The notes under the pieces were generated by a model. That model ran no database searches. It had not been told where the DNA came from and was given only the letters and a program-made list of their open reading frames with translations. The position numbers and the translations under genes were made by a program. Source: Planobispora longispora (GTDB lineage Bacteria; Actinomycetota; Actinomycetes; Streptosporangiales; Streptosporangiaceae). Taken from it: 64,000 nucleotides of DNA. Where the stretch lies: NCBI RefSeq assembly GCF_016863135.1, contig NZ_BOOH01000014.1, positions 1 through 64,000 on the forward strand. Direction: 5' to 3'. Shown piece after piece: positions 28,842 through 43,882 of the stretch (its first letter is position 1; the number at the start of each line of letters is the position of its first letter).

Positions 28842-29534
28842 ATGCCCGACCGGGAGGACGACGTGAGCGCCGCGCCGCTGTCCGAGACCGATTGGCTCAT
28901 CCTGGATCCGGGCCTTCCGGATCCGCTCATTCCTGATCCGCTTGAGGAGCCGCCGTCGCCCTCGGACTCCGTCCCCGACTGGCTGATCCCGCCGGAGCGC
29001 GGCTTCACCGCCGGTGACCTGGACAGACTTCGCGGGCTCCCCCCGCACACCGAGCTGATCGATGGCACTCTCGTCTTCGTGAGCCCCCAGACCCGTTTCC
29101 ACACGCGCATGCTCTCCCTGCTGGAGCGGGCGCTGAGCACGGCAGCACCCGCCCATATGCGAGTGGAGCGGGAGATGACGGTGAAGCTGGGGCCGCGCCA
29201 GCGCCCCGAGCCCGACGTCGTCGTCCTTCATGCGCACGCCGCCACCGATCCGATGTGCACCTTCTACGAAGCGGCCGACGTCCTGCTCGCCGTCGAGGTC
29301 GTCTCGGAGGAGTCGGCGGAGCGCGACCGCAAGCGCAAGCCCCAGCTGTACGCCGAGGCGGGCATCCCCCACTTCTGGCGGGTCGAATACGAAAACGACT
29401 GCCCCGCCGTGTACGTCCACGAACTCGATCAGGCCGATGGCGTCTACCGGCTCACCGGGACCCACCGCGAGCGGTTGACGCTCTCGCTTCCCTTCGAGGT
29501 CGACATCGATCTGACGGAGGCCACCCGGACCTGA
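28842..29534 (+). CDS. Uma2-family (DUF820) putative restriction-endonuclease-fold protein
   Basis: 230 residues. An acidic Pro-rich N-terminus (about 1-55, with DPGLPDPLIPDPLEEP) precedes a PD-(D/E)xK nuclease-like Uma2 fold. Features are HTELIDGTLVFVSPQTRFHTRML, EPDVVVLH, and AVEVVSEESAERDRKRKPQLYAEAGIPHFWRVE. The D...E-x-(V/K) core residues are present, with the usual Lys in RKRKPQLYAEAG. These genes are often abundant in actinomycetes and their role is unsettled. GGAGGTGAG precedes the ATG. The stop abuts the stop of the convergent RiPP-operon exporter gene with no gap. Confidence 0.85.
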   Translation: MPDREDDVSAAPLSETDWLILDPGLPDPLIPDPLEEPPSPSDSVPDWLIPPERGFTAGDLDRLRGLPPHTELIDGTLVFVSPQTRFHTRMLSLLERALSTAAPAHMRVEREMTVKLGPRQRPEPDVVVLHAHAATDPMCTFYEAADVLLAVEVVSEESAERDRKRKPQLYAEAGIPHFWRVEYENDCPAVYVHELDQADGVYRLTGTHRERLTLSLPFEVDIDLTEATRT

Positions 29535-31385
29535 TCACTGGTGGGCCAGCAGCCACGACAGGCGGCTGCCCGGGTCGGCGGCCAGGTCGGCGAAGGCGCC
29601 CTGCTCGGTGACCCGGCCCTCCTCCAGGACCACGACGTGGTCGGCCCTGCGGATGGTGGACAGCCGGTGGGCCACGACCAGGGTGGCCCGGCCCCCGGTC
29701 CCGTCCTTCCGGTGATCCTCGCCCCCGGCCTGCCGCCGTCCCGCGCTCGCGGCCTCCAGAGCCTCGGCGAGGCGGGCCTCGTTCTCGGCGTCGAGGTTGG
29801 CGACGGCCTCGTCCAGCACCAGGACCGGCGCGTCCACGACCAGGGCGCGGGCGACCGCGACCCGGGCGCGCTGGCCGCCGGAGAGGGCGACGCCGCGCTC
29901 CCCGACGACCGTGTCCAGTCCGTCGGGGAGCTCCCCGGGGCCGATCTGCGCGTCGCGCAGCGCCTCCTCGACCGGAGCGCCGGGCGCGCCCAGGCGGACG
30001 TTCTCCGCCAGGGAGCCCGCGAACAGGTGCACGTCCTGGGGCACGACGGTGACCAGCCGCCGCAGGTCGGCGTCGGCGAGCTCGCTCAGCGGGATCCCGC
30101 CCACGGTGATCCGGCCGTGGTCGGGGTCCCAGTACCGCAGCAGCAGCGAGACGCAGGTCGACTTGCCCGCCCCGGACGGGCCGACGAGCGCCACCGTCCG
30201 GCCGGGCCGTACGGTGAACGACACCCCGCGCAGGACCTCGGGCCCGTCGGGGGTGTAGCGGAAGCGCACGTCCTCGAAGACCACCTCGCCCTCCAGCGGC
30301 GGTCGCGGCGCGGCGGGCTCGGTCACGTTGGGCGGGGCGGCGACCAGGGCGTGGACCCGCCCGGCCGCGGCCCGCAGCGTGCCGTACTCCTTCAGCAGCA
30401 GCGCCACCTGCGAGGCCGGGCCGAGGGAGGCCGCGGCCAGCACCATCGCGACCGGCCCGTGGGCGACCGCCAGCTCGCCGGAGCGGACCAGCGCGGCGAC
30501 CAGGAGCAGGGTCCCGGCGGCGGCGACGGCCAGCAGCGCGTCGGTGAGCGCGGCCTCCAGGCCGCCCCGGGAGGCGTTGGCCGCCTGCGCCCGCGCGAGC
30601 CGGCGGGTCTTGGCGGCCAGCAGGTCCCGCCGCCGCTCCAGCGCGCCGAACGCGGTGATCTCCCGCAGTCCCTGCACGGTGTCCACGACGTCGGAGGTGA
30701 GCTCCGCGGTGGCCGCGCGCAGTTCCTCGCCGTGCCGGGAGGAGGTCCTGCGGAGCCAGAACGGCACGGTCAGCACGCACAGCGCCAGCGGGAGCGAGAC
30801 CGCCGGCAGCACCGGGTCGAGCAGGGCCGCCCCCGCCACCCCGCAGACGAGCACGGTCGCCGCGGTGATCAACTGGGCCAGGGTGTGGGCGAACAGCCAC
30901 TCCAGGGTCTCGACGTCGGACAGGACGGCGGCCGACAGGTCCCCGCTGCGCCTGCCGAGCAGCCGGGCGGGGGCGATGCGGGCCAGCGCGTCGTAGACCC
31001 GGCCGCGCAGCCGCGCCAGCACGAGGTAGGCCAGGTCGTGCGCGACGTACATCTCCCACCAGGTGGCGAGGGTGACGACCGCCACCAGCCCGCCCAGCAC
31101 TGCGGCCGCCATGTCCAGCGGGGCCGCCTGCCCCGCGACCGTCCGGCCGAGCAGCCAGGCCCCGGTGACGGCGGCGGCCAGAGCCGCGGTCTGGCCGAGC
31201 AGGTTGGACAGGAGCGTGGCGGCGAACGCCCGCCGGTGCCCGGCGACGGCCGAGGCCAGCCAGACCATCGGGTGAGCGCCCGCGCGCGGGTCGCCCCCGG
31301 GCGGCGGGGCGGCCGTGCCGTCCGGGAGCGGCGGCCGGTCCGCGGCGGTCTTCTCCGGGGAGGGGGTCGGGACACCGGCGGTCAT
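29535..31385 (-). CDS. ABC exporter subunit (CydC-like), last gene of RiPP operon
   Basis: 616-residue fused membrane-ATPase subunit. About six helices (45-330) precede a nucleotide-binding domain. Motifs are Walker A GPSGAGKST, Q-loop VVPQDVHLF, signature LSGGQRAR, Walker B VLVLDEAVANLD, and H-loop VVAHRLST. It resembles CydC of the CydDC thiol exporter, but no cytochrome bd genes are nearby. A Gly/Asp/Arg-rich insertion lies between the D-loop and H-loop. The ATG overlaps the previous subunit stop (ATGA), so the two make a heterodimer. Export of the modified peptide is inferred from operon position. Confidence 0.87.
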   Translation of the reverse strand: MTAGVPTPSPEKTAADRPPLPDGTAAPPPGGDPRAGAHPMVWLASAVAGHRRAFAATLLSNLLGQTAALAAAVTGAWLLGRTVAGQAAPLDMAAAVLGGLVAVVTLATWWEMYVAHDLAYLVLARLRGRVYDALARIAPARLLGRRSGDLSAAVLSDVETLEWLFAHTLAQLITAATVLVCGVAGAALLDPVLPAVSLPLALCVLTVPFWLRRTSSRHGEELRAATAELTSDVVDTVQGLREITAFGALERRRDLLAAKTRRLARAQAANASRGGLEAALTDALLAVAAAGTLLLVAALVRSGELAVAHGPVAMVLAAASLGPASQVALLLKEYGTLRAAAGRVHALVAAPPNVTEPAAPRPPLEGEVVFEDVRFRYTPDGPEVLRGVSFTVRPGRTVALVGPSGAGKSTCVSLLLRYWDPDHGRITVGGIPLSELADADLRRLVTVVPQDVHLFAGSLAENVRLGAPGAPVEEALRDAQIGPGELPDGLDTVVGERGVALSGGQRARVAVARALVVDAPVLVLDEAVANLDAENEARLAEALEAASAGRRQAGGEDHRKDGTGGRATLVVAHRLSTIRRADHVVVLEEGRVTEQGAFADLAADPGSRLSWLLAHQ

Positions 31386-33133
31386 GCGGGGATCTCCTGG
31401 GCGGTGACGAGACGGGTGTAGGCGCCGCCGGCGGCGAGCAGGTCGCCGTGGCCGCCGGACTCGGCCACCGCGCCGTCGGCCAGGACGACGATGTGGTCGG
31501 CGTCCCGGACGGTCGACAGGCGGTGGGCGATGACCAGGCAGGTACGGCCGTTCCGGGCGCGGGCGAGGGCCCGGGCGATGACGGCCTCGCCCCGGGCGTC
31601 CACGTGCGAGGTCGCCTCGTCCAGCACCAGGAGCGGCGCGTCGGCCAGGAGCGCGCGGGCGAGCGCGACCCGCTGGCGCTGGCCTCCGGAGAGCGTGGCG
31701 CCGCGCTCGCCCAGCACGGTGGCGTAGCCGTCCGGCAGGGCCGCGATGAAGTCGTGGGCGCCGGCGTCCCGGGCGGCGGCCGCCAGTTCCTCATCGGTGG
31801 CGCCGGGCCGGGCCAGGCGGAGGTTGTCGGCGACCGTGCCGTGGAAGAGATAGGTGTCCTGGGCGACGACGGCGATCTGCGCGCGCAGGGCGGCGAGGGT
31901 GAGGGTGCGGATGTCGACGCCGTTCAGGGTGACCCGGCCGTGCTGGGGGTCCAGGTGGCGCAGGAGCAGCGAGACGCAGGTGGACTTGCCCGCCCCGGAC
32001 GGGCCGACCAGGGCGACGGTCCGTCCCGGCTCGGCGGTCACGCTGACGTCCCGTACGGCGGGCCGCTCCCGCCCCGGATAGGTGAAGGTGACGCCCTCGA
32101 AGCGCAGTTCCGGGGCGCCGCCCCCGGCCCGTCCCGGCAGGGCGGCGAGGGTACCGGTGTCCGGCGCGGCGGGCCGGGCCGACAGGAGGTCCTCGATGCC
32201 GTCCACCGCGGTGATCCCGAGATACCCGGCGTGCCAGTACTCGGAGAGGTTCTTCACCGGCCGGAAGCACTCCACCGCCACCATCAGGACCGCGAACACC
32301 TCCCAGGCGCCGGGTCCGGGGGTTCCGGCGCCCGGCGCGGCGAACGCCGCGGCCGCGGCCAGCACGGCGCCCGCCGTACCGGCCTGGATCAGGAACGCGC
32401 TCACGCCCGTCTCCACCAGCGAGACCTTGAGCTGGCGCATCGTCGTCTCGTACAGCTCGCGCGCCCGCGTGGCCAGCCGTGCGCCGACCCGGCCCACCGC
32501 GCCGAACGCCCGCAGCGTCGCCATGCCCTGCATGGCCTCCAGGTAGTCGGAGGCCAGGTCGGCGAAGGCCGTCCAGCGGGTACGGCCGCGGCGCAGCAGC
32601 GTGGCGTCCCAGAACCGGGGAATGATCAGAACCCCCGCGACCGCCGCGCCGAGCACGGCCGCCGCCGTGGGGTTGACCGTGGCCAACCAGGCGACCAGGA
32701 CCGTCGGCACGGTGAAGGTGATCACCACCTGCGGGAGGTAGCGGCTGAAGTACGGGTCGAGTCCCTCGACGCCGTCCACCAGCGTGGTCTGCGTCTGCCC
32801 GGTCCTGGTCCCGGTGAGATGGGCCGGTCCCAGCTCGCCGAGCCTGGTGATGAGCCGGTCCCTCAGTTTCGCCCGGATGAGCGCCCCCGCCCACACGGTC
32901 GCCGTCTCCCGCAGCCAGATCAGGGCCGCGCGCGCGGCGATGACCGCGAAGGCCCACAGGAGAAGCGTCACCGCCTCGTCCCAGCGGCCCCGGGCCAGCG
33001 CGGCGAGCGAACCCGCCAGCAGCAGCGCCTGGGCCGCGTAGGCCGAGGAGACCGCCAGGCCGAGACCGACGCACACCGCGATCGGCCCCTTGACGTCTCC
33101 GGCGAGCTGGATCAGCCTCCGATGAACGATCAC
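31382..33133 (-). CDS. ABC exporter subunit (CydD-like)
   Basis: 583 residues. Six membrane helices (about 15-300, starting RLIQLAGDVKGPIAVCVGLGLAV) are followed by an ATPase domain. It carries GPSGAGKST, VVAQDTYLF, LSGGQRQR, LLVLDEATSHVD and VIAHRLST, so both catalytic sites look intact. GTG is chosen because it overlaps the stop of the SagB-type gene (GTGA); the longer upstream frame is only the opposite-frame image of that gene. It pairs with the CydC-like subunit. In other bacteria CydDC exports cysteine or glutathione; here the cargo is probably the cluster product. Confidence 0.87.
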   Translation of the reverse strand: MIVHRRLIQLAGDVKGPIAVCVGLGLAVSSAYAAQALLLAGSLAALARGRWDEAVTLLLWAFAVIAARAALIWLRETATVWAGALIRAKLRDRLITRLGELGPAHLTGTRTGQTQTTLVDGVEGLDPYFSRYLPQVVITFTVPTVLVAWLATVNPTAAAVLGAAVAGVLIIPRFWDATLLRRGRTRWTAFADLASDYLEAMQGMATLRAFGAVGRVGARLATRARELYETTMRQLKVSLVETGVSAFLIQAGTAGAVLAAAAAFAAPGAGTPGPGAWEVFAVLMVAVECFRPVKNLSEYWHAGYLGITAVDGIEDLLSARPAAPDTGTLAALPGRAGGGAPELRFEGVTFTYPGRERPAVRDVSVTAEPGRTVALVGPSGAGKSTCVSLLLRHLDPQHGRVTLNGVDIRTLTLAALRAQIAVVAQDTYLFHGTVADNLRLARPGATDEELAAAARDAGAHDFIAALPDGYATVLGERGATLSGGQRQRVALARALLADAPLLVLDEATSHVDARGEAVIARALARARNGRTCLVIAHRLSTVRDADHIVVLADGAVAESGGHGDLLAAGGAYTRLVTAQEIPA

Positions 33134-34275
33134 TTCGCATCCCTCCCCGGCCCCGCCGGGCCGCCCGCGTCCGTCCCGGATCCGACCCCGTCGTCCCTGT
33201 GGGCGCCGTTGGCTCCGTTGGCCCCGTCCCGGCAGGCTCCGTCCCCGCCGGGTCCCACGACGGCGCCGTGCACGATCACGCGCTCCCCCGGCGTCCCGCC
33301 GAGCGCGGCCCCCAGGTCGGCCTCCCCCCAGCTGCCGATCGCCCTGGCCCGCAACCCCCGGGCCTGGGCCAGCAGCAGCACCCGGTGCACGGCCATCCCG
33401 GCCCGCAGGCACGCCACCCGGTACGCCAGCCATCCCGTCCTCTCCGCCGCCGCGTGCGGGGTCGTGTAGAGCAGCACGGCCGCGGCGTCGGCCAGGAAGG
33501 GCTGGCCATGGGCCCATACGGCGAGGGCCGGGCGGGCGTCCCCCCGGCCGACGAGTCCGGTCGCGTCGTACAGCCCGTCCGGCAGGGCGGCGACCAGGCG
33601 GGTGCCCGCCAGCAGCGGCGCGGGATCGACCTCGCCGGTGAACGGCGGGAACGCGCTCCTGCGCCTCGTGATCGTCTCGGTCTCGACGTGGGCCGTCTCG
33701 GGCGCCTCCCAGACCGCGTCCCGGGTTCCCGGGCCGAGGCGGGCCAGATCCGGGTGGGACCACGACCGCGCCGCGCCGCGGCGCCTCCCGGCCTCCGCGA
33801 GCGCCGGGGGCGGGCCGTCCCCCACCCAGGCCGCCGCCAGCGGGTATCCCTCGACCGGCCCGGTGAGCCGCTCCAGCGTCGAGCCGTCCGTCTCCAGCAG
33901 GACCCGGCAGCCGACCCCGAGCACGGCCGCCGCGGCGGCGACCGCTCCCAGCGCGTGGCCGAGGTCGAGCAGGAGGCTGGGCAGGCTGCGGGAGCCGTAC
34001 TTGCGCTCCGTGCGCTCCGGGACCAGGGCCAGGACGATCAGTGCCCCGCCGGCGGGCGCCGGGCCGCTGCCCCGCCCGGTCAGGTCGTCGCCGAGCGGGT
34101 CGTAGAAGAAGCGGCCGCCCGAGGTCAGGACGTGGGCGTCGACCGGGTAGCGCGCTCCCGCCGAGGGCACCCGGCGCAGCCGTACGGATCCCACCGCGGG
34201 ACCGGCCGCCGCCAGGGACAGGCGCAGGAGTTCCCGCAACGTCGAAGTCCTCACGGCGTCCTCAGAAGTCCTCAC
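33130..34275 (-). CDS. SagB-type azoline dehydrogenase
   Basis: 381-residue nitroreductase-fold flavoprotein. In azole RiPP pathways it oxidises thiazolines and oxazolines to thiazoles and oxazoles with FMN. The motif VPSAGARYPVDAHVL (about 36-50), the KYGSRSLPSLLLDLGHALGAVAAAAAVLG helix and the second nitroreductase-like segment GWLAYRVACLRAGMAVHRVLLLAQARGL are typical. The Gly/Ala/Asp-rich C-terminal tail (about 350-381) looks disordered. GTG 34275 is 7 bases after the YcaO stop. A second in-frame GTG at 34254 arises from a 21-bp duplication. It overlaps the next ABC gene. Confidence 0.85.
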   Translation of the reverse strand: MRTSEDAVRTSTLRELLRLSLAAAGPAVGSVRLRRVPSAGARYPVDAHVLTSGGRFFYDPLGDDLTGRGSGPAPAGGALIVLALVPERTERKYGSRSLPSLLLDLGHALGAVAAAAAVLGVGCRVLLETDGSTLERLTGPVEGYPLAAAWVGDGPPPALAEAGRRRGAARSWSHPDLARLGPGTRDAVWEAPETAHVETETITRRRSAFPPFTGEVDPAPLLAGTRLVAALPDGLYDATGLVGRGDARPALAVWAHGQPFLADAAAVLLYTTPHAAAERTGWLAYRVACLRAGMAVHRVLLLAQARGLRARAIGSWGEADLGAALGGTPGERVIVHGAVVGPGGDGACRDGANGANGAHRDDGVGSGTDAGGPAGPGRDAK

Positions 34276-34285
34276 GGCGTCCTCA
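34244..34285. repeat. 21-bp perfect tandem duplication at YcaO/SagB junction
   Basis: Two identical 21-base copies (34244-34264 and 34265-34285). The duplication spans the YcaO stop codon and the SagB start, giving two GTG start candidates each preceded by GAGGAC. Confidence 0.85.
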
Positions 34286-35617
34286 CAGGTGCGGGGGCGG
34301 GGCCAGGGTGATCTCGGGCAGCGGCCGGGTCCACCGGGGGGAGGCCAGGTAGGGGTAGGCGGCGGGGCTGTTGGGAAGCAGGCCGCTCACCGCGACCCGC
34401 GCCACCCGCAGCGGCGTCTCGGCGATGTCCCGGGTGGTCAGGTCGACGACGACGATCCGGTGGCCGGACAGCGCGGCGAAGGGATCGGCGCCCGCCGGGA
34501 TCTCGTCGACGCCGACGGTCCCGGCCGCGGGACGGGTGAACCGGCGCAACATCGGATGCATGCGCTCGTCGAGCCAGACCTGGGCCTGGGCGGCGAGGTC
34601 GCGGACCGCGGCGAAGTCCTCGCCCACGTCGTCCAGGTAACGCCGGTCGGCCCGCCACGGCAGGTAGGCGTGCCTGGCCAGGATGCCGCGCTTCATCGCC
34701 TCGAAGGCCGCGCCGTCCTCCGACAGCAGCCCTCGCGAGGCGATCCACACCTGCACCGCCTCCATGGCCGCCTTGTGGCAGGCCTCGGCGGGGTCGCTGC
34801 GGCAGGCGAACCCGGCCGCGGCGATGCGGAGCTCCGGATCGTAGGCGAGAGCCGCGATCACCGGCACCCCCTGCCCTCCCGGGACCTCGACCAGGCTCAG
34901 CTCCAGCCGGGACCCGGCCCACGCCTCGCGCAGCCCCGGCACCGAATCGACGCCGATTCCCCGGGCGGGCAGGTCGAGCCCCCACCACAGGGTGACGGCG
35001 TCCCGCTCGACGACCTCCAGCAACGCCCGGCGGGCGGCGTCGGCCAGGCCCACGCCGCAGGCGACGCCCGCGTAGTTGAGATGGTGGTGGCGGGGCTCGC
35101 GGCGCCGGGGGCCCTGGTGCCAGTTGAGGTACGTCCACGAGCCGGGGACCAGGCAGGGCACGCCCCGGATCCCGTCTCCTCCCGCTGCGGGCCCTGCGGC
35201 GTCGAGCTCGACGCCCTCCGCCCAGAGGATCTCCTCGCCCTCGGCCCACGGCCGGTAGGGGAAGGCCGTCCTGCCGTACTGCTCGGGCGCGAATCCCGGC
35301 AGGTCCTGCGGGCCCAGGTGCCGCACGCCCCGCCGGACCAGCTCGGCGACGCTCGCCCGGCGCAGGTCCGCGGGGATGTTGTTGCCGCAGTAGCGCTCGA
35401 CGGCCTCGCCGACGGCGGCCCGCCGGGCGCTCTCCTCGTCGCCGAACGACGTCCCGGCGGCCACCTGGTCGGCGAGCCAGACGCCGACCCTGCGCGTGTC
35501 GGACACCTCGGCGATCAGGCAGCGGTAGGAGTCGGGCATGCCGTCCAGGCGCGGGTAGGGCACGATCCGGCGGATCACGCCGCACACCGGGTCGACGAGC
35601 GCCTCTGGCGTGATCAT
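34283..35617 (-). CDS. YcaO-domain cyclodehydratase (TOMM D-protein type)
   Basis: 444 residues. YcaO enzymes activate a peptide amide with ATP so that Cys, Ser or Thr side chains cyclise to azolines. The ATP/Mg motifs are visible: SFGDEESARRAAVGEAVERY (E71-x2-E74-R75) and RALLEVVERDAVTLWW (E201, E204). The C-terminus ends in APPPHL, Pro-rich but not a strict PxPxP. The leader-binding partner is a separate gene two positions upstream, so C and D proteins are split. The start ATG shares one base with the hydrolase stop (TGATG). Confidence 0.9.
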   Translation of the reverse strand: MITPEALVDPVCGVIRRIVPYPRLDGMPDSYRCLIAEVSDTRRVGVWLADQVAAGTSFGDEESARRAAVGEAVERYCGNNIPADLRRASVAELVRRGVRHLGPQDLPGFAPEQYGRTAFPYRPWAEGEEILWAEGVELDAAGPAAGGDGIRGVPCLVPGSWTYLNWHQGPRRREPRHHHLNYAGVACGVGLADAARRALLEVVERDAVTLWWGLDLPARGIGVDSVPGLREAWAGSRLELSLVEVPGGQGVPVIAALAYDPELRIAAAGFACRSDPAEACHKAAMEAVQVWIASRGLLSEDGAAFEAMKRGILARHAYLPWRADRRYLDDVGEDFAAVRDLAAQAQVWLDERMHPMLRRFTRPAAGTVGVDEIPAGADPFAALSGHRIVVVDLTTRDIAETPLRVARVAVSGLLPNSPAAYPYLASPRWTRPLPEITLAPPPHL

Positions 35618-37281
35618 CAGGGAGCCTCCTGGAGCTCTTTGACGGGATCGGCGGTCCACGCCGGATCCGGGACGACCGGGAGGAGGAGCCGGGCTCCGGT
35701 GACGCTCCGGGCGGACGGGAGCAGCGTGCGGGCGGTGAGCGGATCCTCGGCGGTGTGCGGGTGGCGCACGTGGAGGGGGAAGTGGTGCCCGGCGACCTCC
35801 ACGCGCAGCCGGGCGCCCTCGGGGAAGCGGTGCACGATCGTCGGCAGGCTGAGCCGCTGGAGACCGGCCCGGTCCCGCCCGGCGGCCGTACGGCCGGGAC
35901 GCGGGCCCACGGCGTCGTGATCACCGGGGCGCAGGCCGCCGTCTTCATGGTCACCGGAGCTCAGGCCACCGCCTTCATGGTCGGCCACCGCGTGGCCGAG
36001 CTGGACGGCCCTGCCGTCGGGGTGCTCCTCCGCCAGCCGTACGGCCCAGTGGCCCTCCCCGATTCCGGCGAAGGTCACCGCCGGCCGGCCCGCCACCGTG
36101 ACCGCCCGCTCGAACGGATCCGTACGGAACACGACGACATCGGCCCTTCCCGCGTCGGAGGTGACGTCCACCGGTCCCATCCGCGAGGGGAACGGGTCGC
36201 CGGGGTCCGCGACGAACGCGCCGCCGCCGGGAAGGTCCATCTCGGCGATCCGGGTCCCCGGCCACTCGTCCCCGTGATCCCGGACCTGACCGACTGGGGT
36301 CCGTGCCCCCTCGCCTCCGGTGGCCCGGATCCGCCGGAGCCACGGAGGTTCCCCGGGCCCCTGCCCCGCCAGCCAGCGGTCGTCGCCCTCGGCCGCCAGC
36401 AGCACGGTCGAGGGCGGGTCGCCCGCCAGGAGGCGGTCGATCCACGTCATGATCAGCCGGGCCGCCGGCACCCGGTGTCCGGGGGCGATCGGCCGGTCGC
36501 CGTTGCGCTCCCGGTTCACCAGGCCGAGGTCGTGCTGCCACGCCCCGACGACCAGCGTGCGCGGCCCGCGCGCCCGGCGCCACAGGTCCACCGCGTCGTC
36601 CAGGAACGGGTCGTGCAGCCCGGCGACGCTGAGCAGCGGCACCCGCACGTCGGCGCGCGGAGGCGCCGGATCACGCCAGGCGCGCTCCCATCCGGGGAGC
36701 GGCACGCCGAGCCGGGCGGGCAGGTCGGTGACGGGCAGGTGCCGCAGGGCGTCCGGGTCGTCGGCGATCCTGGTGTCGAGCAGGCCCACGCGCTCGGTGC
36801 GTCCGTCGCCGTAGGTCGTCCACCACCAGGCATGGGAGTACAGCTTCGGCACCCCTCCCGGCTCCCTGGCGACGGCCCCCAGCGCGGGCACCGCCGAGAT
36901 CACCCCGGCGACGCCCTCCGGCTCCCCGGCTGCCGCCTCGACCGCGCAGAACGCCCCGTACGACGACCCGTAGAGGATCACCCGTCCGTCGCACCACGGC
37001 CGGCCGAGCACCCACCGCAGCAGTTCCCGCCCGTCCTCGCGCTCGTGGACGTACGGCTCCCACCGTCCGCCGGACTCGTACCGGCCCCGGACGTCCTGGA
37101 CCACCGCCGCGATCCCGCGCCGCGCCCACCCGTGCGCCTCCGCCAGGTGCCGTGTCCTGCCGTACGGCGTGCGCATCACGATCACCGGGTGCCGCCCGTC
37201 CGCGGAGGGGAGCACGGCATCGGCCACCAGTTCCGTCCCGTCGTGGCCGGGGACCCGCACCGCGCCGTGGAGCACGGTCAT
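35617..37281 (-). CDS. CocE/NonD-type hydrolase (X-Pro dipeptidyl-peptidase-like) in RiPP operon
   Basis: 554 residues. An alpha/beta-hydrolase core has the candidate triad S107 (GSSYGA), D224 (GLHDPF) and H250 (VVGAWQHD). A C-terminal jelly-roll domain follows, the CocE/X-Pro peptidase layout. There is no signal peptide, so it is probably cytoplasmic. Its place between the leader-binding and YcaO genes, with ATGA and TGATG overlaps, implies a pathway role such as leader trimming; the precursor contains several X-Pro sites. An insertion of DHEGGGLSSGDHEDGG-type repeats (about 435-470) looks like a recent expansion. Confidence 0.85.
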   Translation of the reverse strand: MTVLHGAVRVPGHDGTELVADAVLPSADGRHPVIVMRTPYGRTRHLAEAHGWARRGIAAVVQDVRGRYESGGRWEPYVHEREDGRELLRWVLGRPWCDGRVILYGSSYGAFCAVEAAAGEPEGVAGVISAVPALGAVAREPGGVPKLYSHAWWWTTYGDGRTERVGLLDTRIADDPDALRHLPVTDLPARLGVPLPGWERAWRDPAPPRADVRVPLLSVAGLHDPFLDDAVDLWRRARGPRTLVVGAWQHDLGLVNRERNGDRPIAPGHRVPAARLIMTWIDRLLAGDPPSTVLLAAEGDDRWLAGQGPGEPPWLRRIRATGGEGARTPVGQVRDHGDEWPGTRIAEMDLPGGGAFVADPGDPFPSRMGPVDVTSDAGRADVVVFRTDPFERAVTVAGRPAVTFAGIGEGHWAVRLAEEHPDGRAVQLGHAVADHEGGGLSSGDHEDGGLRPGDHDAVGPRPGRTAAGRDRAGLQRLSLPTIVHRFPEGARLRVEVAGHHFPLHVRHPHTAEDPLTARTLLPSARSVTGARLLLPVVPDPAWTADPVKELQEAP

Positions 37282-38141
37282 GCGGACCTCCGGGGCTCGA
37301 CGGGGGGCAGCGGCAGGATCGGGTGGTCCGTCACCGTCAGTTCCACGCTGTCGACCAGCCGCAGCCTCCGCGCCCCGGTCACCGCGCGGCGGCCCGCCCC
37401 GTCCGCCCGGGCCACCTGATCCGCCAGGTCGGCGGCCAGGACGGCGGCGACGAAGGCGGCCTGGGCGGGGCCGATCGGGGAAGGGCCCCTGCGGCGTTCC
37501 TCCCCGGAGGCCGTCCAGTAGGCCAGCAGGTGTTCGGGGGACTCGCTGGCCGCCAGGCGACGGGCCCGCACGTCGGCGTGGGTGACGTCGTCCGGGCCGA
37601 GGGCGACGGGCTCGACCACGATGGTGGCGCCCTCGACCGAGCAGCGCTGCCAGGCGATCCCGCGCCGGGTGAGCAGGGCGTCGAGCGATGTCCACTCCGC
37701 GGGCGGATGGCCGTCGCAGCACCAGGTCACGGCCGCGTAGCCGGTGGGCACGGGCTCCGTGTCGGAGGGCGCGGCGGGGACGGGCGCCCCGCCGGGCGCG
37801 TCCGCACGCAGGCCGTCAACACGCAGGCCATCCGCACAGCCGTCCACACGGAGAACGTCCGTGCGCAGGACATCCGCTCCCATCCGGCCGAGCAGCTCGC
37901 CCAGCGCGGCGGCGATCGCTCCCTCGCCCACGACCGCCACGGGGCCGGGCCACCGCAGCGGCTCCCGGTCGGTGACCAGTCCTCTGGCCTCGAACGCGCC
38001 GAGGGTCTCCCGGTCCATGAGGTCCGGGTCCTCGCCGAGCTCCCGGTTGACGCGGAGGAACTCTCCGGAGGGCGTTCTCAGCACCGTCTCACCGGCCACC
38101 GGAAAGATCTCCACGCCTGGCGCGAAGGTCCGCAGCGCCAT
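37278..38141 (-). CDS. TOMM leader-peptide-binding E1-like protein (C-protein type)
   Basis: 287 residues. The N-terminal 5-60 (FAPGVEIFPVAGETVLRTPSGEFLRVN..., with ETLGAFEARGLV) looks like the PqqD-like RiPP recognition element. A Rossmann strand-loop PVAVVGEGAIAAAL (about 68-80) leads an E1/ThiF-like domain lacking recognisable catalytic Cys or zinc CxxC pairs. Such proteins bind the leader peptide and present it to YcaO. Residues about 93-115 are a repetitive LRxDxLRVDG run. ACAGGAGA precedes the ATG. The stop overlaps the hydrolase start (ATGA). It follows the precursor gene after a 63-base gap with a hairpin. Confidence 0.78.
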   Translation of the reverse strand: MALRTFAPGVEIFPVAGETVLRTPSGEFLRVNRELGEDPDLMDRETLGAFEARGLVTDREPLRWPGPVAVVGEGAIAAALGELLGRMGADVLRTDVLRVDGCADGLRVDGLRADAPGGAPVPAAPSDTEPVPTGYAAVTWCCDGHPPAEWTSLDALLTRRGIAWQRCSVEGATIVVEPVALGPDDVTHADVRARRLAASESPEHLLAYWTASGEERRRGPSPIGPAQAAFVAAVLAADLADQVARADGAGRRAVTGARRLRLVDSVELTVTDHPILPLPPVEPRRSA

Positions 38142-38160
38142 CGGCTCTCCTGTCTGCGAA

Positions 38161-38197
38161 GGGAGCGCCGCGCATCCCGAGAGACACGCGGCACCCC
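38161..38197 (-). terminator. hairpin between precursor and biosynthetic genes (partial terminator)
   Basis: Arms GGGAGCGCCGCG (38161-38172) and CGCGGCACCCC (38187-38197) pair over about 11 positions with two G-U pairs and a 14-base loop. It lies between the peptide gene stop and the leader-binding gene. This placement is common in RiPP operons, where it raises precursor over enzyme mRNA. Confidence 0.55.
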
Positions 38198-38204
38198 ACA
38201 GGGA

Positions 38205-38324
38205 TCAGGCCTCGTCGTCGAACAGGTCGGCGACGAGGGCGTGGTTGCAGGTCGGGTGAGCCGCCGCCGCGGGGGCGGGGTTCACGATCGCCGAGAACAC
38301 CGGCACGTCGTCGTAGGACTCCAT
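38205..38324 (-). CDS. candidate RiPP precursor peptide, 39 residues
   Basis: First gene of the operon, with a near-perfect ribosome-binding site (AGGAGGTAGCCC before ATG). The 39-residue product has an acidic/hydrophobic N-terminal half (S3, Y4, D5, D6, V9, F10, S11) and an N15-P-A-P-A4 stretch. The C-terminal part is H23-P-T25-C26-N-H28 followed by acidic residues (D33, D36, D37, E38). The only Cys (C26) and its neighbour T25 are the natural cyclisation sites, flanked by two His. The AAAA run may mark the leader/core border. It matches no known bacteriocin core that I recognise. Assignment rests on size, position and neighbouring maturation genes. Confidence 0.72.
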   Translation of the reverse strand: MESYDDVPVFSAIVNPAPAAAAHPTCNHALVADLFDDEA

Positions 38325-38380
38325 GGGCTACCTCCTGAGATTTCTGGACTTTTGCGCTCTCGGGCCCTTGGCGCGGAGCC

Positions 38381-38386
38381 AGCGTA
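38381..38386 (-). promoter_or_regulatory. -10 element of the RiPP operon
   Basis: TACGCT on the minus strand, about 57 bases before the precursor ATG. The Zur-type box at 38388-38404 lies immediately upstream, between the -10 and -35 positions. Confidence 0.45.
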
Positions 38387-38387
38387 A

Positions 38388-38404
38388 ATGATAATGATTT
38401 TCAT
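38388..38404. promoter_or_regulatory. Zur-type operator, site 1
   Basis: ATGATAATGATTTTCAT, near-palindromic around 38396. It fits the A/T-rich TGAxAATGATTxTCA pattern known for actinobacterial Zur boxes and stands out in GC-rich DNA. It does not resemble the IdeR/DmdR iron box (TTAGGTTAGGCTAACC type). Confidence 0.7.
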
Positions 38405-38407
38405 GTC

Positions 38408-38413
38408 TATGCT
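38408..38413 (+). promoter_or_regulatory. -10 element of the zinc/metallophore uptake operon
   Basis: TATGCT, with transcription expected near 38420. The second Zur-type box (38415-38429) covers the start point, so repressor binding would block it. Confidence 0.5.
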
Positions 38414-38414
38414 T

Positions 38415-38429
38415 AGAAAATGATTTTCG
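38415..38429. promoter_or_regulatory. Zur-type operator, site 2
   Basis: AGAAAATGATTTTCG contains the perfect 13-base palindrome GAAAAT-G-ATTTTC. Its centre is 26 bases from that of site 1. Confidence 0.7.
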
Positions 38430-38446
38430 TTCTCCTTGGAGGTCAG

Positions 38447-39853
38447 ATGCCCGACAAGCTCGTCGGCCGCGCCGGAGCCGTGGGCCTGCTCGCCCTGGCT
38501 CTGTTCGCCCCCACCGCCGCCGCAGCCGCGTCCGCACCCCCGCACCCCGGCGATCAGGTCACGAGCGGGGAAACCGAAGCCGCCCGGGCCGCCTCGCCCG
38601 GAGCGACGGACCAGGCTTACGACACCCGGACGGGAACCGGGTCCCGCCTGGTCGTCGCCGACCCCGCCGCGAGCCAGGTGCACATCTACGCGATCCCGTC
38701 CCACCGCAGGGCCGCCACCATCACCGGCCGGACCCCGTCGAGCCACGCCGGCATGCTCTCCCTGCGCGACGGCCGGGTGCTCTTCGTCGACGAGACTCAC
38801 CACGAGCTCGTCGCCCTGCAGGTGACGGGCGTCCCCCGGATCGTCGGCGCGGTCCCGCTGCCCGAGGGGGAGGTCACGCACATCGCCGTCGACCCGGCCA
38901 ACCGCTACGCCGTCGTGGCCGCGGCCGAGGAGCACGACCACGAGGAGGAGTCCCAGGAGACCGGCGAGGAGGAGGGGCACGGCATCCTCACCCTCGTCGA
39001 CCTGCGCACCTACGCGCCCTCCAGCGTCGAGGTGCACAGCGGCCACCCCGGCGTCATGCTCGGCGGGGAGCCCTTGACCGTCCTGCACCGCAACGACGCC
39101 GACAACACGCTGGAGACCTTCCCCGTCTCAGCGATCCTGGCCGGTGCGGGCGGCCACCTGGAGCCTTCCTCCAGCGTCCCGACCGGGGCCGCCGGGCACG
39201 GCGAGGCCCTGGCCGGCGACCTGGCGATGACGGCGACCGACGCCGGTCTCGACACGGCCCGGCTCCGGGCGGGCTCCCTGACCCCGGTCAGGACCGTGCC
39301 CTGGCCCGCGGAGACCGGTCGCGCCTTCTACGTGCGGCTGAGCGCCGACGGACGGAACCTGGTCACCTACACCTCCAACGAGTCCGGCGACGACTGGCAG
39401 AACTGGCTGCACGACGCCTTCCTCGTCGACCCGGCCACCGGCCGGTCCGTCACCACCCGCCTGGGCTCCGGGTTCCTGTTCCGGTTCGGACTGTCCGACC
39501 GGTACGCCGGTTACGTGCTCCAGCAGCCGGGCGGGGACAAGGTCTCCTTCGTCGACGTCCGTCCCGGCTCGTCGCACTACGGAAAGATCACCGCGAACGT
39601 CCAGCTCGGCTCCCTGCCGGGCGGACCGGCCGTCGGCTCGTCCCCCTGGGGCACGCAGGGCCGCCGGATCGCGCTGGACCCCACCGGCGCCCTCGCCTAC
39701 GTCAGCGGCGGCGGCACCGGGCGGATCAGCGTGATCTCCCCCGACCACGGCCGGACCGTGGGCGCCATCACCACCCCCACCCGGCTGGACGGCGGCGGCG
39801 CCCTGACCGTCGTCACCCCCGGCCGGTCCGACGCCGACACCGTCGGCCGCTGA
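38447..39853 (+). CDS. aztD: secreted AztD-like zinc metallochaperone (beta-propeller)
   Basis: 468 residues. The signal peptide (LVGRAGAVGLLALALFAPTAAAAA) is followed by repeated beta-propeller strands (RLVVADPAASQVHIYAIP, GRVLFVDETHHELVALQV, RYAVVAAAEEHDHEEE). The His/Asp/Glu-rich loop (about 161-179) is typical of AztD, which passes zinc to a cognate ABC binding protein. The C-terminal AYVSGGGTGRISVISPD is another blade. GGAGG precedes the ATG at 38447; an ATG at 38420 lies inside the operator and is unlikely. As first gene of the uptake operon behind Zur-type boxes, a zinc role is well supported. Confidence 0.8.
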   Translation: MPDKLVGRAGAVGLLALALFAPTAAAAASAPPHPGDQVTSGETEAARAASPGATDQAYDTRTGTGSRLVVADPAASQVHIYAIPSHRRAATITGRTPSSHAGMLSLRDGRVLFVDETHHELVALQVTGVPRIVGAVPLPEGEVTHIAVDPANRYAVVAAAEEHDHEEESQETGEEEGHGILTLVDLRTYAPSSVEVHSGHPGVMLGGEPLTVLHRNDADNTLETFPVSAILAGAGGHLEPSSSVPTGAAGHGEALAGDLAMTATDAGLDTARLRAGSLTPVRTVPWPAETGRAFYVRLSADGRNLVTYTSNESGDDWQNWLHDAFLVDPATGRSVTTRLGSGFLFRFGLSDRYAGYVLQQPGGDKVSFVDVRPGSSHYGKITANVQLGSLPGGPAVGSSPWGTQGRRIALDPTGALAYVSGGGTGRISVISPDHGRTVGAITTPTRLDGGGALTVVTPGRSDADTVGR

Positions 39854-39866
39854 GGAGCACGGCAGC

Positions 39867-40937
39867 ATGCTGCGTAGATTCCCCTCCGGCAGGTTCCCCT
39901 CTGCCAGGTTCTCCTCCCGCAGGTTCCCGTCCGGTGGATTCGTGCCCGCCCTCCTCCTCGCCGCCCTGCTGAGCGGATGCGGCGCCGGAGCCTCCCCCTC
40001 GCAGGAGGCCGGGGCGACGGCATCGGGCGCGCCGAAGACGACCGCTGCGGCATCGGGCGCGCCCGCCGTCCAGGTCACCCCGGTGACGGCCGCGCTGACC
40101 GTCACCGACCCGGCGGGCAAGCAGGTCACCCTCACGAAGAAGCCGGAGCGGGTCGTCTGCCTCACCGGCCTCTGCGACGACATGCTCGTCGAGCTCGGCC
40201 TCACCCCCGCCGCGACGACCACGCCCAAGCTCCTGGCCCGCCCCGACTACCTGGGCGCCGCCGCCGGACGGGTCCCGGTCATCCCGGGCAGCTTCGGCGG
40301 CGAGGACGTCGCGAAGATCGCCGAGCAGCGGCCGGACCTGGTCATCGGGCTCGCCGGGGTGCACGACCAGCTCAGGACCGCGGTGGAGAAGTTCGCCCCG
40401 CTGTGGGTGGTGGAGGTCAAGAGCTACGAGGACTCCGTCGGCTACCTGCGCGCCCTCGCCCGGCTCACCGACCGGGGCGCTCAGCAGGCCGGGGCCGAGC
40501 TGAGGTTCCGTACCAAACTGGCCGAGGGCACGGCCACCGCGAAGGCCCGGAAGCTCGACGGCACGACCGTGCTCGCCATGTACGGCGGAAGCTCGGTGGG
40601 CGTGAACACCACCGACGACGTGCTCGGCGACTTCATGTCGGAGTTCTTCTCCTACCCCTGGCCCAGCAAGGGAGGCGGCTTCGAAACCGCTCAGGCCTAC
40701 AGTGTGGAGGAGATCCTCGCCAAGGCGCCTGATGTGATCTTCATCCAGTCCTTCACCTTCGGCCCCGACTCCAAGACGGTGACGGAGACGCTCAAGGACA
40801 ACCCCGTGTGGAAGCGGGTCCCCGCCGTGGCCAACGACAGGGCCTTCGAGGTCCAGCCCGAGCTGTGGGCCTCCGGCCGCGGGACGAGGGCCTTCGGCAT
40901 CATCCTCGACGAGGCCCTCGCCAAGGTCGCCGGTTGA
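39867..40937 (+). CDS. FecB/FepB-type metallophore-binding lipoprotein
   Basis: 356 residues. The lipoprotein signal (PALLLAALLSGC, C38) has an unusual Arg/Phe/Pro/Ser repeat in front. The helical-backbone class III binding fold begins VTDPAGKQVTLTKKPERVVCL, with EDVAKIAEQRPDLVIGL and VEEILAKAPDVIFIQ as in siderophore/cobalamin binders. The fold binds chelates rather than bare zinc; free-zinc ZnuA proteins look different and carry His-rich loops. It probably captures the metal-loaded product. GAGGAG lies 12 bases before the ATG. A GTG at 39942 would give a very short signal. Confidence 0.87.
   Translation: MLRRFPSGRFPSARFSSRRFPSGGFVPALLLAALLSGCGAGASPSQEAGATASGAPKTTAAASGAPAVQVTPVTAALTVTDPAGKQVTLTKKPERVVCLTGLCDDMLVELGLTPAATTTPKLLARPDYLGAAAGRVPVIPGSFGGEDVAKIAEQRPDLVIGLAGVHDQLRTAVEKFAPLWVVEVKSYEDSVGYLRALARLTDRGAQQAGAELRFRTKLAEGTATAKARKLDGTTVLAMYGGSSVGVNTTDDVLGDFMSEFFSYPWPSKGGGFETAQAYSVEEILAKAPDVIFIQSFTFGPDSKTVTETLKDNPVWKRVPAVANDRAFEVQPELWASGRGTRAFGIILDEALAKVAG
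39876..39935 (+). repeat. four 15-bp tandem repeats in the binding-protein leader
   Basis: Imperfect units AGGTTCCCCTCCGGC at 39876, 39891, 39906 and 39921 encode RFPSG/RFPSA/RFSSR/RFPSG. Confidence 0.8.
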
Positions 40938-42028
40938 GCCAGGCGTCACCTCCCCGCGTCACCGCCCCGCCCGGAGGCGCGCGCGGACGCCTGTCCGCAG
41001 GCCCGCGCACAGGACGGCGCGCCGTCCTGATCGTGGCGGCGGCCGTCGCCGTCCTGGCCCTGGCCGCCGTCTGCCTGGGGCAGCCGGTGATCCCGCCGCA
41101 CCGGCTGCCCGCCGTGCTGGGCGACCGGGCCTCGGTGGAATTCGTGGTGCTGTGGGAGCTGCGGGTGCCCCGGCTCGCCGTCGCCGTCTTCGGCGGCGCG
41201 GCGATCGGGGCGGCCGGGCTGCTGCTGCAGGAGGCTCTGCGCAACCCGCTGGCGGTCCCGGAGCTGCTCGGGGTGTCCTCCGGGGCCGCGCTGGCGGTGG
41301 CGGTCTGCGTGGTGTGGGCGCTGCCGGTGCCGTACGGGCTGCACCCGCTGCTCGGACTGGCCGGCGCGGCCGGCGGCGGGGCGCTGTGCCTGGTCGCGGC
41401 CCGCACCGCGCGCAGCGCCTCGGCGACGCTGCTGGTCGGCGCCGCGGTCTCCACCGCGATCCAGGCGCTGCTGCTGGCGGTGATGGCCACCGCCGAACGC
41501 ATCCAGTACGACATGTTGTTCCGCTACCTCGTCGGCAGCCTGACCGGCGTCATGTGGGAGCAGGCCGCGCACGTGCTGCCCTGGTCCCTCCTCGCGATCC
41601 CGCTGGTGGTCCTCTGCGTGCCGGTGCTCGGGCTGCTGCGGCTCGGCGACGACACCGCCGCCGCTCTCGGCAGCCGGGTGAGCCGTGCCCGGCTGGGCGT
41701 GCTGGCCGTGGCCTCGCTGCTGATCGGATGCGTGACCGGACCGTGCGGGCCGCTGGCATGGGTGGGGTTCGTCGCGCCGCTGCTGGCGCGCCGGCTGCGG
41801 CCCCGCGGCGAGGCCGGGACGTGGCTGCCCTGGTCGGCCGCGCTCGGCGCGCTGGTGGTCCTGGCCGCCGACCTGGTGGCCCGGCTCGCCCTCGCCCCGG
41901 TGGAGACGCCGCTCGGCGCGTGGACCGCCCTGCTCGGCGTTCTGGCGGGGGCCGTCCTGCTGCGCGGGGAGGCGGCGCGTCCGCGCACGGCCGCGGCGCG
42001 GGACGGACGAGCGGGGGGATCGCGGTGA
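40934..42028 (+). CDS. FecCD-family permease (first)
   Basis: 364 residues. It belongs to the BtuC/FhuB/FecCD family of chelate importers, with about nine to ten helices. Family stretches are WELRVPRLAVAVFGGAAIGAAGLLLQEALRNPLAVPELLGVSSGAALAV and GPLAWVGFVAPLLARRL, the ATPase contact. The best start is TTG overlapping the lipoprotein stop (TTGA), with no ATG or GTG before the first helix; this is unusual but consistent with coupled translation. It pairs with the next permease to form a heterodimer. Confidence 0.85.
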   Translation: MSQASPPRVTAPPGGARGRLSAGPRTGRRAVLIVAAAVAVLALAAVCLGQPVIPPHRLPAVLGDRASVEFVVLWELRVPRLAVAVFGGAAIGAAGLLLQEALRNPLAVPELLGVSSGAALAVAVCVVWALPVPYGLHPLLGLAGAAGGGALCLVAARTARSASATLLVGAAVSTAIQALLLAVMATAERIQYDMLFRYLVGSLTGVMWEQAAHVLPWSLLAIPLVVLCVPVLGLLRLGDDTAAALGSRVSRARLGVLAVASLLIGCVTGPCGPLAWVGFVAPLLARRLRPRGEAGTWLPWSAALGALVVLAADLVARLALAPVETPLGAWTALLGVLAGAVLLRGEAARPRTAAARDGRAGGSR

Positions 42029-43011
42029 GACGGCTCGCCTCGATCCTGGTGATCGCCCTGCCCGCGACCGTGCTGGCGCACCTGCTGGCTCCCGGCATCG
42101 GGGACCTGGGCACGCTGCTGGGACCCGCCGGCACCCTGGAGCACCGGATCATGTGGGAGCTGGGCGTGCCCCGGCTGCTGGCCGCGCTGCTGACCGGTGC
42201 GGCGCTCGGCGTGTCCGGGCTGGTCCTCCAGCTCACCCTCCGCAACCCGCTGGCCGCCCCCGAGCTGACCGGGGTCAACCCCGGCGCGGTGCTGGGCATC
42301 CTGACCGGGCTGACGTTCGGGCTGTTCCCGGCCGACTCCGCGGGCGGCGCGCTGGCCGCCGCGCTCGCCGGGAGCGCCCTGGGCGGGTCGGCGACCTGGC
42401 TGCTCACCTCCCGGGACCCCGGCAGGGCCGTCGTGTACGGCCTGCTCGGCAGCGCGCTGCTGGCCGGGCTGGTCACCCTCCTGCTGGCCTACCAGCCCAG
42501 CCGCTTCGGCAACGCGTTGCGCTGGCTCGTCGGGTCGGTCCAGGGGCGGGTCTGGGAGCACCTGGGGTTCACCTGGTGGTGGATCACCGGATGGATCCTG
42601 CTGATCTGGGCCGGATCGGCGGTGCTCGGCGTGCTCGCCCCCGGCGACGACCACGCCGCCGGGCTGGGCCTGCGCCCGGGAGCCGCCCGCGCGGCGGCGC
42701 TGACGGCGGCGACCGCGCTGGCGGCGGGCGCGGCGAGCCTGGCCGGGGCGGTGGCCTTCGTCGGCCTGGTCGTCCCGCACGCGGCCCGGTGGCTGGCGGG
42801 GGCCGACCCGAGGAGGACCGTGCCGGTGGCGGCCGTCGCCGGGGCCGCGGCGATCGCCGGCGCCGACGCGGTCGCCCAGTTCGCCGACCGCCTGATGGCC
42901 GGCGCGGAGGTCACCCAGCGGCTGGGTGTCCCCACCGGCGTGGTGACCGCCCTGGCGGGAGCCGCCGTACTGGTGACCGTGGCGCGCAGGGCCGCCCACG
43001 TCCCCGGGTGA
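42025..43011 (+). CDS. FecCD-family permease (second)
   Basis: 328 residues with the same fold: WELGVPRLLAALLTGAALGVSGLVLQLTLRNPLAAPELTGVNPGAV near the start and GAVAFVGLVVPHAARWLAGADPRR near the end. The GTG start overlaps the first permease stop (GTGA). Two permeases with one ATPase and one lipoprotein make a complete metallophore-type importer. Confidence 0.9.
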   Translation: MRRLASILVIALPATVLAHLLAPGIGDLGTLLGPAGTLEHRIMWELGVPRLLAALLTGAALGVSGLVLQLTLRNPLAAPELTGVNPGAVLGILTGLTFGLFPADSAGGALAAALAGSALGGSATWLLTSRDPGRAVVYGLLGSALLAGLVTLLLAYQPSRFGNALRWLVGSVQGRVWEHLGFTWWWITGWILLIWAGSAVLGVLAPGDDHAAGLGLRPGAARAAALTAATALAAGAASLAGAVAFVGLVVPHAARWLAGADPRRTVPVAAVAGAAAIAGADAVAQFADRLMAGAEVTQRLGVPTGVVTALAGAAVLVTVARRAAHVPG

Positions 43012-43030
43012 TGACGACGACAGGAGAGAG

Positions 43031-43882
43031 ATGACCGGGATGATCGCTGTCAGCGGGCTGGAGTTCGGCTACGGGGACCGCACGGTGCTCGACGGGATCG
43101 ATCTGACCGTCGGGCACGGCGAACTCGTCGCGCTGGTGGGTGTGAACGGCTGCGGCAAGAGCACCCTGCTACGGCTCATCGCGGGGCTGCTGACCCCGCG
43201 CCGGGGCGCCGTCCGCCTCGACGGGACGGACCTGGCGAGCCTGTCCCGGCGGGAGGTGGCCCGGCGGCTGGCCGTACTGCACCAGGCCCTGGCGCCCGTC
43301 CCCGGCCTGACCGTGCGCCAGCTCGTACGGCAGGGCGGATACCCGCACCGGGGCCCGCTCGGCATGCTCGGCGCGCCCGGCGACGGGGTGGCCGAGGAGG
43401 CGATGGAACTCACCGGGGTGGCCCACATGGCCGACCGGGTGCTGGACACCCTCTCCGGCGGGGAGCGCCAGCGGGTACGGCTGGCGCTGGCCGTCGCCCA
43501 GCGCAGCCCGATCCTGCTGCTGGACGAGCCGACCGCCCACCTGGACGTCCGCCACCAGCTGGAGGTGCTCGCGCTGGTCCGCCGGTTGCGCGACAGCCGG
43601 GACCTCACCGTGCTGGCCGTGCTGCACGAGCTGGACCACGCGGCCCGCTTCGCCGACCGGATCGTCGCCCTGGCCGGCGGACGTGTCGCCGCCGACGGCC
43701 CGCCCCGCGAGGTCGTCACCGAGGAGTTGCTGGCGGCCGTGTTCGGGGTGCGGGGGCGGGTGGTGTACGACGAGCGCAACGACGCCCCCCACTGTTTCCT
43801 GGACCACCCGCTCGACGGGGCCCGCGCCCCCGCCGTCCCCGACCCCGCCGCCCCAGACCCCGAGCCCGCAGTCGCTCCTTGA
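43031..43882 (+). CDS. metallophore-type ABC transporter ATP-binding protein
   Basis: 283 residues (FepC/BtuD type). Walker A GVNGCGKST, Q-loop region LAVLHQALAP, signature LSGGERQR, Walker B ILLLDEPTAHLD and H-loop VLHELDHA are intact. AGGAGAGAG precedes the ATG. The Pro/Asp-rich C-terminal tail (about 262-283) is extra to the family. It is the last gene of the uptake operon and convergent with the Nudix regulator. Confidence 0.92.
   Translation: MTGMIAVSGLEFGYGDRTVLDGIDLTVGHGELVALVGVNGCGKSTLLRLIAGLLTPRRGAVRLDGTDLASLSRREVARRLAVLHQALAPVPGLTVRQLVRQGGYPHRGPLGMLGAPGDGVAEEAMELTGVAHMADRVLDTLSGGERQRVRLALAVAQRSPILLLDEPTAHLDVRHQLEVLALVRRLRDSRDLTVLAVLHELDHAARFADRIVALAGGRVAADGPPREVVTEELLAAVFGVRGRVVYDERNDAPHCFLDHPLDGARAPAVPDPAAPDPEPAVAP

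Follow-up and report, generated by a model that had tools for sequence, protein, structure and literature searches.

A candidate zinc-acquisition branch of the streptamidine family, with a cysteine-bearing core and Zur-type boxes, in Planobispora longispora

Why should the genes for a small modified peptide share a promoter, and two Zur-type palindromes, with an importer of the kind that takes up metal chelates? The question is raised by positions 29535..43882 of the first 64,000 nucleotides of contig NZ_BOOH01000014.1 of Planobispora longispora (the whole stretch is called the window here). The original prediction, made from the letters alone, saw in this locus a zinc-regulated operon for an azole-containing ribosomally synthesized and post-translationally modified peptide (RiPP), divergent from an importer that would bring the zinc-loaded peptide back into the cell. 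The genes that it named, their divergent arrangement, and the two palindromes are all present. The locus belongs, as a divergent branch, to the streptamidine (ami) RiPP family already in the literature, and on balance, though by no means securely, this cysteine-bearing branch with its predicted Zur control probably works in zinc acquisition by way of a secreted and re-imported peptide. What the sequences show directly is the gene content, two protein folds, the conserved boxes, the linked importer, and a peptide core that does not vary within the window's clade.

The ami cluster of Streptomyces albidoflavus J1074, studied there and in S. coelicolor M1146, contains FecBCDE-like genes, amiF1-F4 (PMC8442711; MIBiG BGC0002115), and amiX, which is partly conserved and has been named hypothetical or a putative oxidoreductase (PMC8442711). 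More than 230 ami biosynthetic gene clusters are known, the family being reported from over 230 species, and the fec genes led the streptamidine authors to propose metal import (PMC8442711). The complete set (precursor, AmiB-E, FecBCDE-like importer, and two ABC exporter genes) is found in the window, whose YcaO falls in the tree among those linked to streptamidine-type precursors; the precursor of a Streptomyces relative is identified by the curated model NF040714 as a streptamidine family RiPP. The two systems share amiA-E, F1-F4, T1-T2, and X, a 6-residue core of the plan H-x-[S/T]-x-x-H (HLSATH in streptamidine, HPTCNH in the window), and an ALV motif after the core. The window differs in core residues Pro2, Thr3, Cys4, and Asn5, in its follower (ALVADLF rather than SNALVENPF), in having the importer and AmiX genes divergent from the RiPP genes, in the signal-peptide-like N-terminus and His/Glu-rich loop of its AmiX, and in its separate YcaO clade.

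Relatives were collected at three scales. Five of 396 genomes sampled from the phylum, the window's included, carry a YcaO match at E 1e-60 with an alignment profile, indicating a family that is found widely but is uncommon; of 297 genomes sampled within the window's taxonomic family, 62 have a match at E 1e-40 or better. A scan of one genome per species, covering 84,980 species, yielded 203 relatives, the best 80 of which make up the named set. These are mostly from Streptomyces, the other genera being Planobispora, Thermoactinospora, Actinomadura, Microtetraspora, Streptosporangium, Nocardiopsis, Allonocardiopsis, Longimycelium, Actinosynnema, Williamsia, and Nocardioides. No relatives were found in the viral contigs searched. 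A precursor was detected in 77 of the 80 named loci; in the other three (L083, L120, L151) the YcaO gene lies less than 1 kb from the start of the available sequence. The genes for the binding protein, both permeases, the ATPase, the E1-like protein, the hydrolase, and YcaO follow one another in the same order on one strand in 60 of the 80. In 7 the importer is upstream and divergent, the arrangement seen in the window, and in 8 it lies downstream. The named set and the loci from the window's taxonomic family overlap (L034 = L074, L035 = L138, L036 = L075, and others) and are not independent.

The promoter common to both divergent operons holds box 1 (TGATAATGATTTTCA, 38389..38403) and box 2 (AGAAAATGATTTTCG, 38415..38429). 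Box 1 fits the Zur consensus used in the motif searches, TGAWAATGATTTTCA, without a mismatch and is alone in doing so in the whole assembly of 8.84 Mb; box 2 has two mismatches. Besides these two, no 15-mer in the window scores as high as 12 of 15. Elsewhere in the same genome, TGACAACGGTTTTCA (L226:2344-2358) ends about 20 bp 5' of the likely znuA start in a ZnuA-ATPase-ABC3-Fur-family operon, and TGGGAACGATTTTCA (L164:2135-2149) is located upstream of an L33-L31-L28-S14 operon. In actinobacteria, znuA-type operons and ribosomal-protein operons of this kind are textbook Zur targets. A further 12-of-15 site (L226:3169) lies within the znuA reading frame. Among other Zur-like matches in this genome, one (C59) is apparently intergenic and lacks an obvious zinc link, and three (C56, C60, and C67) overlap open reading frames and are taken as chance.

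The Zur-type palindromes of the original prediction find strong support in these loci, across genera. When the 300 bp before each precursor were scanned for the best 15-mer against the consensus, a box was found in all 77 named loci having a precursor and upstream DNA, with scores of 11 to 14 of 15 and a beginning 64-129 bp before the start codon. Shuffled sequences (n=770) scored 11 eight times and never above, and coding controls reached at most 10 (one of the 77 controls had no sequence). In the loci from the window's taxonomic family, a wider scan of 900 bp gave a score of at least 11 in 27 of 28 motif-A-like or Cys loci and in 10 of 11 distant loci; shuffles did so in 1 of 560 and 1 of 220 cases, respectively. 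Where the genes for AmiX and the lipoprotein diverge from each other, a score of at least 11 is present between or beside them in 59 of 59 loci, a count made without shuffles. The shuffles and the conservation together rule out a chance origin for the promoter palindromes.

The importer, too, is a regular neighbor of these genes. In the window it is of the PF01497/PF01032 type and is encoded on the + strand by genes for an AmiF1-like substrate-binding lipoprotein of the chelate type (PF01497; 39867..40937), two FecCD permeases, AmiF2-like (40958..42028, start codon provisional) and AmiF3-like (42025..43011), and an AmiF4-like ATPase (43031..43882). FecCD permeases (E 1e-10) are found in all 68 named loci of at least 20 kb and in 77 of 80 overall, the three without them offering only 11.4, 8.0, and 3.5 kb of sequence. 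Unrelated YcaO loci, 20 from 17 genomes with 18-20 kb each, gave none; these controls are a sample, hand-picked from mostly high-ranked PF02624 matches. This control rejects a chance linkage of the importer, and the tight link to a chelate-type importer that was originally claimed is borne out. The overlapping set from the window's taxonomic family has FecCD in 38 of 40 stretches; the two exceptions are short, one of 10.3 kb and one of 8.0 kb whose companion stretch, L053, has FecCD. The other genes recur in the 68 long loci as well (AztD-like 59, binding protein 64, E1-like protein 64, dehydrogenase 63, hydrolase 68), while counts of the ABC exporter include cross-matches among ATPases. A complete lack of FecCD and AztD genes beside homologous RiPP operons, which would have told against the original prediction, is thus clearly not what is seen. 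Dedicated uptake, one mark of a zincophore, has its counterpart here in the genetic linkage of importer and RiPP genes.

One apparent case without FecCD, in genome G435 (L221, L222), dissolves on inspection. A plasmid-like contig has FecCD beyond the exporter (L224), and the chromosomal copy lies by the start of its contig, where an ATPase match is cut off. The two streptamidine-type cluster copies of this genome are near-identical (98% over 11 kb), one on a large contig and the other on the 69.6-kb plasmid-like contig, whose ends repeat each other and which has ParA- and ParE-type genes; this duplication suggests recent movement. In L219, a PF01497-type binding protein lies near the contig end and FecCD was not found in the available sequence.

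The peptide itself sets the window's branch apart. The AmiA-like precursor of 39 residues (38205..38324, - strand) has the core HPTCNH followed by ALVADLF. This core aligns position by position with HLSATH of streptamidine, and its Thr3 retains a hydroxyl at the position of Ser3, the residue linked to amidine formation in streptamidine (PMC8442711). With Cys4 comes a residue that could serve as a thiolate or be turned into a thiazole. The stretch of core plus follower, AHPTCNHALVADLFD, is shared without change by four species, those of the window, Planobispora rosea, Thermoactinospora rubra, and Actinomadura hibisca, while the whole precursors of two of the other three are only 69% and 61% identical to that of the window. 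Within the order, 4 genomes out of 345 have a precursor of the HPTCNH type. The published precursor list has 22 sequences with neither motif A nor motif B, a group in which such cores might occur (PMC8442711). Model NF040714 matches all three motif-A precursors tested (one from Streptomyces, one from Williamsia, and one from the window's family) and gives no match for the window's or the Thermoactinospora-type precursor. The precursors of the named loci comprise 54 different sequences; HDSASH, HLSATH, and HASATH are examples of their cores, and SNALVENPF comes after them. The ALV region was part of the search pattern, and its 100% conservation is thus partly built in. Nearly all cores have two flanking His residues, to which the window's clade adds Cys.

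Other core types exist. Precursors of L063-L069 end in VHSSNHATARSSAIAWR-type cores, a third type, again with FecCD and Zur-like boxes; the one tested, from L064, is matched by neither curated streptamidine model. L068 and L069, from the window's own genus (G087, G044), belong to a different branch with precursor MTVKKLKAKARNASVHSSNHATVALAKVAWR, FecCD permeases, and Zur-like boxes, so the core type switches inside this genus. In L046, L049, L052, and L053, a single peptide contains leader and core repeated head to tail, each unit having its own leader segment. The streptamidine-related repeat proteins of model NF040715, taken as motif B of the published work, also have FecCD and Zur-like boxes nearby (L070, L071, L073), but their core is PALQGPGTNALVH[NT]PF, repeated twice in L070 and L071. 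They lie in the distant YcaO branch that the window's clade joins at a support of 93/90 in a tree of 40 rows, in which the clade itself has 100/100; the two outgroup rows of this tree are long-branched, and each of the pairs L035/L138 and L036/L075 stands for a single locus with two ids. The window's YcaO is 47-55% identical to relatives outside its clade and 49-55% to the best-80 list.

A second pointer to zinc is AmiX (38447..39853, + strand; an alternative start at 38420 falls within box 2), a beta-propeller whose best structural match in a fold search is AztD, as the original prediction of an AztD-like protein would have it. The alignments to AztD structures (PDB 6cmk, 6n01, 6ck1) have 14-16% identity, and phmmer and profile searches of the PDB gave no AztD by sequence. 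Three His residues are invariant in the sequence alignment of AmiX and may or may not correspond to those of the PdAztD zinc site (His124, His167, and His218). Known AztD chaperones partner the cluster A-I importer AztABC (PMC6689063), whereas the importer beside AmiX is of the FecCD/PF01497 type. In that alignment, only AmiX of the window's clade has a His/Glu-rich loop and, ahead of the propeller, an N-terminus of strong hydrophobicity; the other named AmiX proteins with placeable starts begin at the first blade and have no signal-peptide-like segment. Judged by a rough index of hydrophobicity and simply chosen start codons, AmiX is apparently secreted only in the window's clade, and most named relatives seem to be cytoplasmic (starts in L078, L132, and L144 are among those poorly placed, and in L112 there is a stop close to the start). 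No AztD-like gene was detected in L063-L073.

The remaining genes of the RiPP operon lie on the - strand and supply the chemistry and the way out. The AmiB-like protein (37278..38141), identified by fold match and family alignment, is an E1-like, leader-binding partner of YcaO, with a match to a chain of the McbBCD complex (6gri, E 1.5e-8) as well as to TruD-type heterocyclases; its fold is that of the partner proteins of microcin B17 and the cyanobactins. It is followed by an AmiC-like S15/CocE hydrolase and probable leader peptidase (35617..37281; PF02129, E 1e-40; TIGR00976 above cut-off; catalytic-type motifs), the AmiD-like YcaO, a cyclodehydratase or amidine-forming enzyme (34283..35617; PF02624, E 2e-40; tree), an AmiE-like, SagB-like flavin dehydrogenase (33130..34275; PF00881, E 3.4e-13; SagB model below cut-off), and the ABC exporter subunits AmiT1-like, CydD-like (31382..33133), and AmiT2-like, CydC-like (29535..31385). 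The azole product first envisaged is doubtful and was not adopted, because the sole characterized relative, streptamidine, has an amidine ring, no azole, and unmodified Ser/Thr (PMC8442711).

Beyond the exporter, a long open frame (26784-29534, + strand) has a C-terminal part matching the Uma2 family (PF05685); it overlaps an aminotransferase gene on the opposite strand (27720-28781, -), and the real Uma2 gene is probably shorter. Shortly past the importer, a DUF4434 protein (44585-46489, -) adjoins a glycosyltransferase (46562-47650, -).

How might these parts work together? When zinc is scarce, Zur would leave the two boxes, turning on both divergent operons. YcaO and its E1-like partner would modify HPTCNH at Thr3/Cys4, close a His1-to-Pro2 amidine ring, or both; the S15 hydrolase would then cut the leader, and the CydDC-like pair would export the product, as homology and the published ami mutants suggest. 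Outside the cell, the peptide could take zinc via ring nitrogens, via His1, Cys4, and His6, or via both. The AztD-like propeller, apparently secreted here, may hand zinc to the peptide or receive it from the peptide; AmiX would handle zinc outside in the window's clade and probably inside in others. The FecBCD-type importer would return the peptide-zinc complex.

Several observations weigh against this scheme, chief among them the published negative binding result. By liquid chromatography-mass spectrometry, streptamidine binds none of Fe, Co, Cu, Mg, Mn, Ni, and Zn, the chrome azurol S assay for iron is negative, and the S. albidoflavus amiD mutant behaves as the wild type under metal starvation (PMC8442711). 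The Cys of the window's predicted product may or may not be cyclized. Zur control of both operons is predicted from sequence alone, and genes under Zur control need not be zinc importers. A good box is missing in two of 39 loci of the window's taxonomic family (L039, L072). In four Streptomyces loci (L114, L128, L143, L150), FecCD lies beyond the exporter, is only 33-36% identical to that of the window, and has no matched binding protein, making the importer link weaker there. Finally, the lack of a signal-like N-terminus in the placeable AmiX proteins outside the clade means that an extracellular chaperone role is not general. The zinc reading is better supported than it was at first from sequence alone; tests of the published metal-import idea on streptamidine were negative (PMC8442711), and the original interpretation as a whole is partly supported.

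A tentative and rather doubtful extension would reconcile the two, with streptamidine-family peptides as Zur-controlled ribosomal zincophores and streptamidine itself no more than the spent remnant of an imported peptide. Three published findings would then make sense: zinc is not bound, the product is lost on deletion of amiF1-F4, and the dehydrogenase is essential although streptamidine carries no oxidation (PMC8442711). Production is abolished by deleting amiB, C, D, E, or amiF1-F4 (PMC8442711), but the last deletion may act through other ami genes. In the Cys-core branch, on this reading, the zinc ligand would be stronger and the AztD-like partner secreted.

It is unlikely, but worth weighing, that zinc starvation induces a non-chelating peptide, a signal or developmental factor re-imported by a Fec-type peptide importer. 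Streptamidine, with neither metal binding nor a metal-starvation phenotype, fits such a role; its authors left the biological role unknown and suggest signalling or development (PMC8442711). The strong conservation of precursor cores and the scores of the binding proteins tested, far under the cut-offs of curated siderophore models, also fit it. An AztD-fold partner, an importer of the FecCD rather than the oligopeptide type, and the two flanking His residues of nearly all cores, joined by Cys in the window's clade, do not.

Quite improbable is a chelator of another metal (Cu, Co, Ni, Fe) that substitutes for zinc during zinc starvation. Sequence does not reveal the choice of metal, the usual cargo of FecCD importers is a chelate of iron or of the cobalamin type, and among NCBIfam models a ferric-dicitrate one matches the window's binding protein best, with a score below its cut-off; yet zinc is the metal suggested by the Zur-type boxes and by the AztD fold, and the seven-metal assay on streptamidine was negative (PMC8442711).

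Two last readings are very improbable. A local zinc carrier that loads AmiX in the cell or at its surface, without true secretion and re-import, would suit those placeable AmiX proteins outside the window's clade that have no signal-peptide-like segment and the Nocardiopsis-type loci L037 and L038, where the importer follows the dehydrogenase in the exporter's usual place and no exporter is seen, but not the signal-peptide-like N-terminus of the window's AmiX, the long exporter matches in most family loci, or the lowering of streptamidine by amiT1-T2 deletion (PMC8442711). An antibacterial RiPP induced by zinc starvation beside an unrelated importer, for which YcaO/E1/SagB-type machinery, common in antibacterial RiPPs, and an exporter that could double as immunity might speak, is opposed by a core that varies little, unlike those of many bacteriocins, by the lack of detected antibacterial or antifungal activity of streptamidine (PMC8442711), and by the loss of all pathway products on amiF1-F4 deletion (PMC8442711), which makes importer and peptide appear one pathway.

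Among the matches listed in the open-licence literature there is no ribosomal or YcaO zincophore, no Zur-controlled RiPP, and no report of zinc binding by any streptamidine-family product, HPTCNH included. Coelibactin is a zincophore made by a non-ribosomal peptide synthetase. Methanobactin is a ribosomal chalkophore whose modified residues bind copper and which has its own importer, but it is made by different enzymes and is not known to involve a YcaO. Opines of the staphylopine/pseudopaline type are bacterial small molecules that scavenge zinc and have their own uptake (PMC7438024), but are non-ribosomal; zinc scavenging is described for them and not for the streptamidine family. The novelty first claimed is to be divided accordingly. 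The family, its fecBCDE-like neighborhood, and the metal-import hypothesis were published in 2021 (PMC8442711), in a main text from which the words Zur, promoter, and AztD are absent. New as far as the literature was searched are the Zur-type box before 77 of 77 precursors, the FecCD linkage figures against controls, AmiX as an AztD-fold protein whose apparent secretion is confined to the window's clade, and the Cys-bearing core HPTCNH of that clade, missed by the curated model.

The presence of a Zur-type box before every one of these precursors makes the open role of streptamidine directly testable, and the Cys-core branch is a natural variant in which to test the chemistry. If the zinc-acquisition reading is true, ribosomal peptides become a zincophore route beside opines and non-ribosomal peptides.

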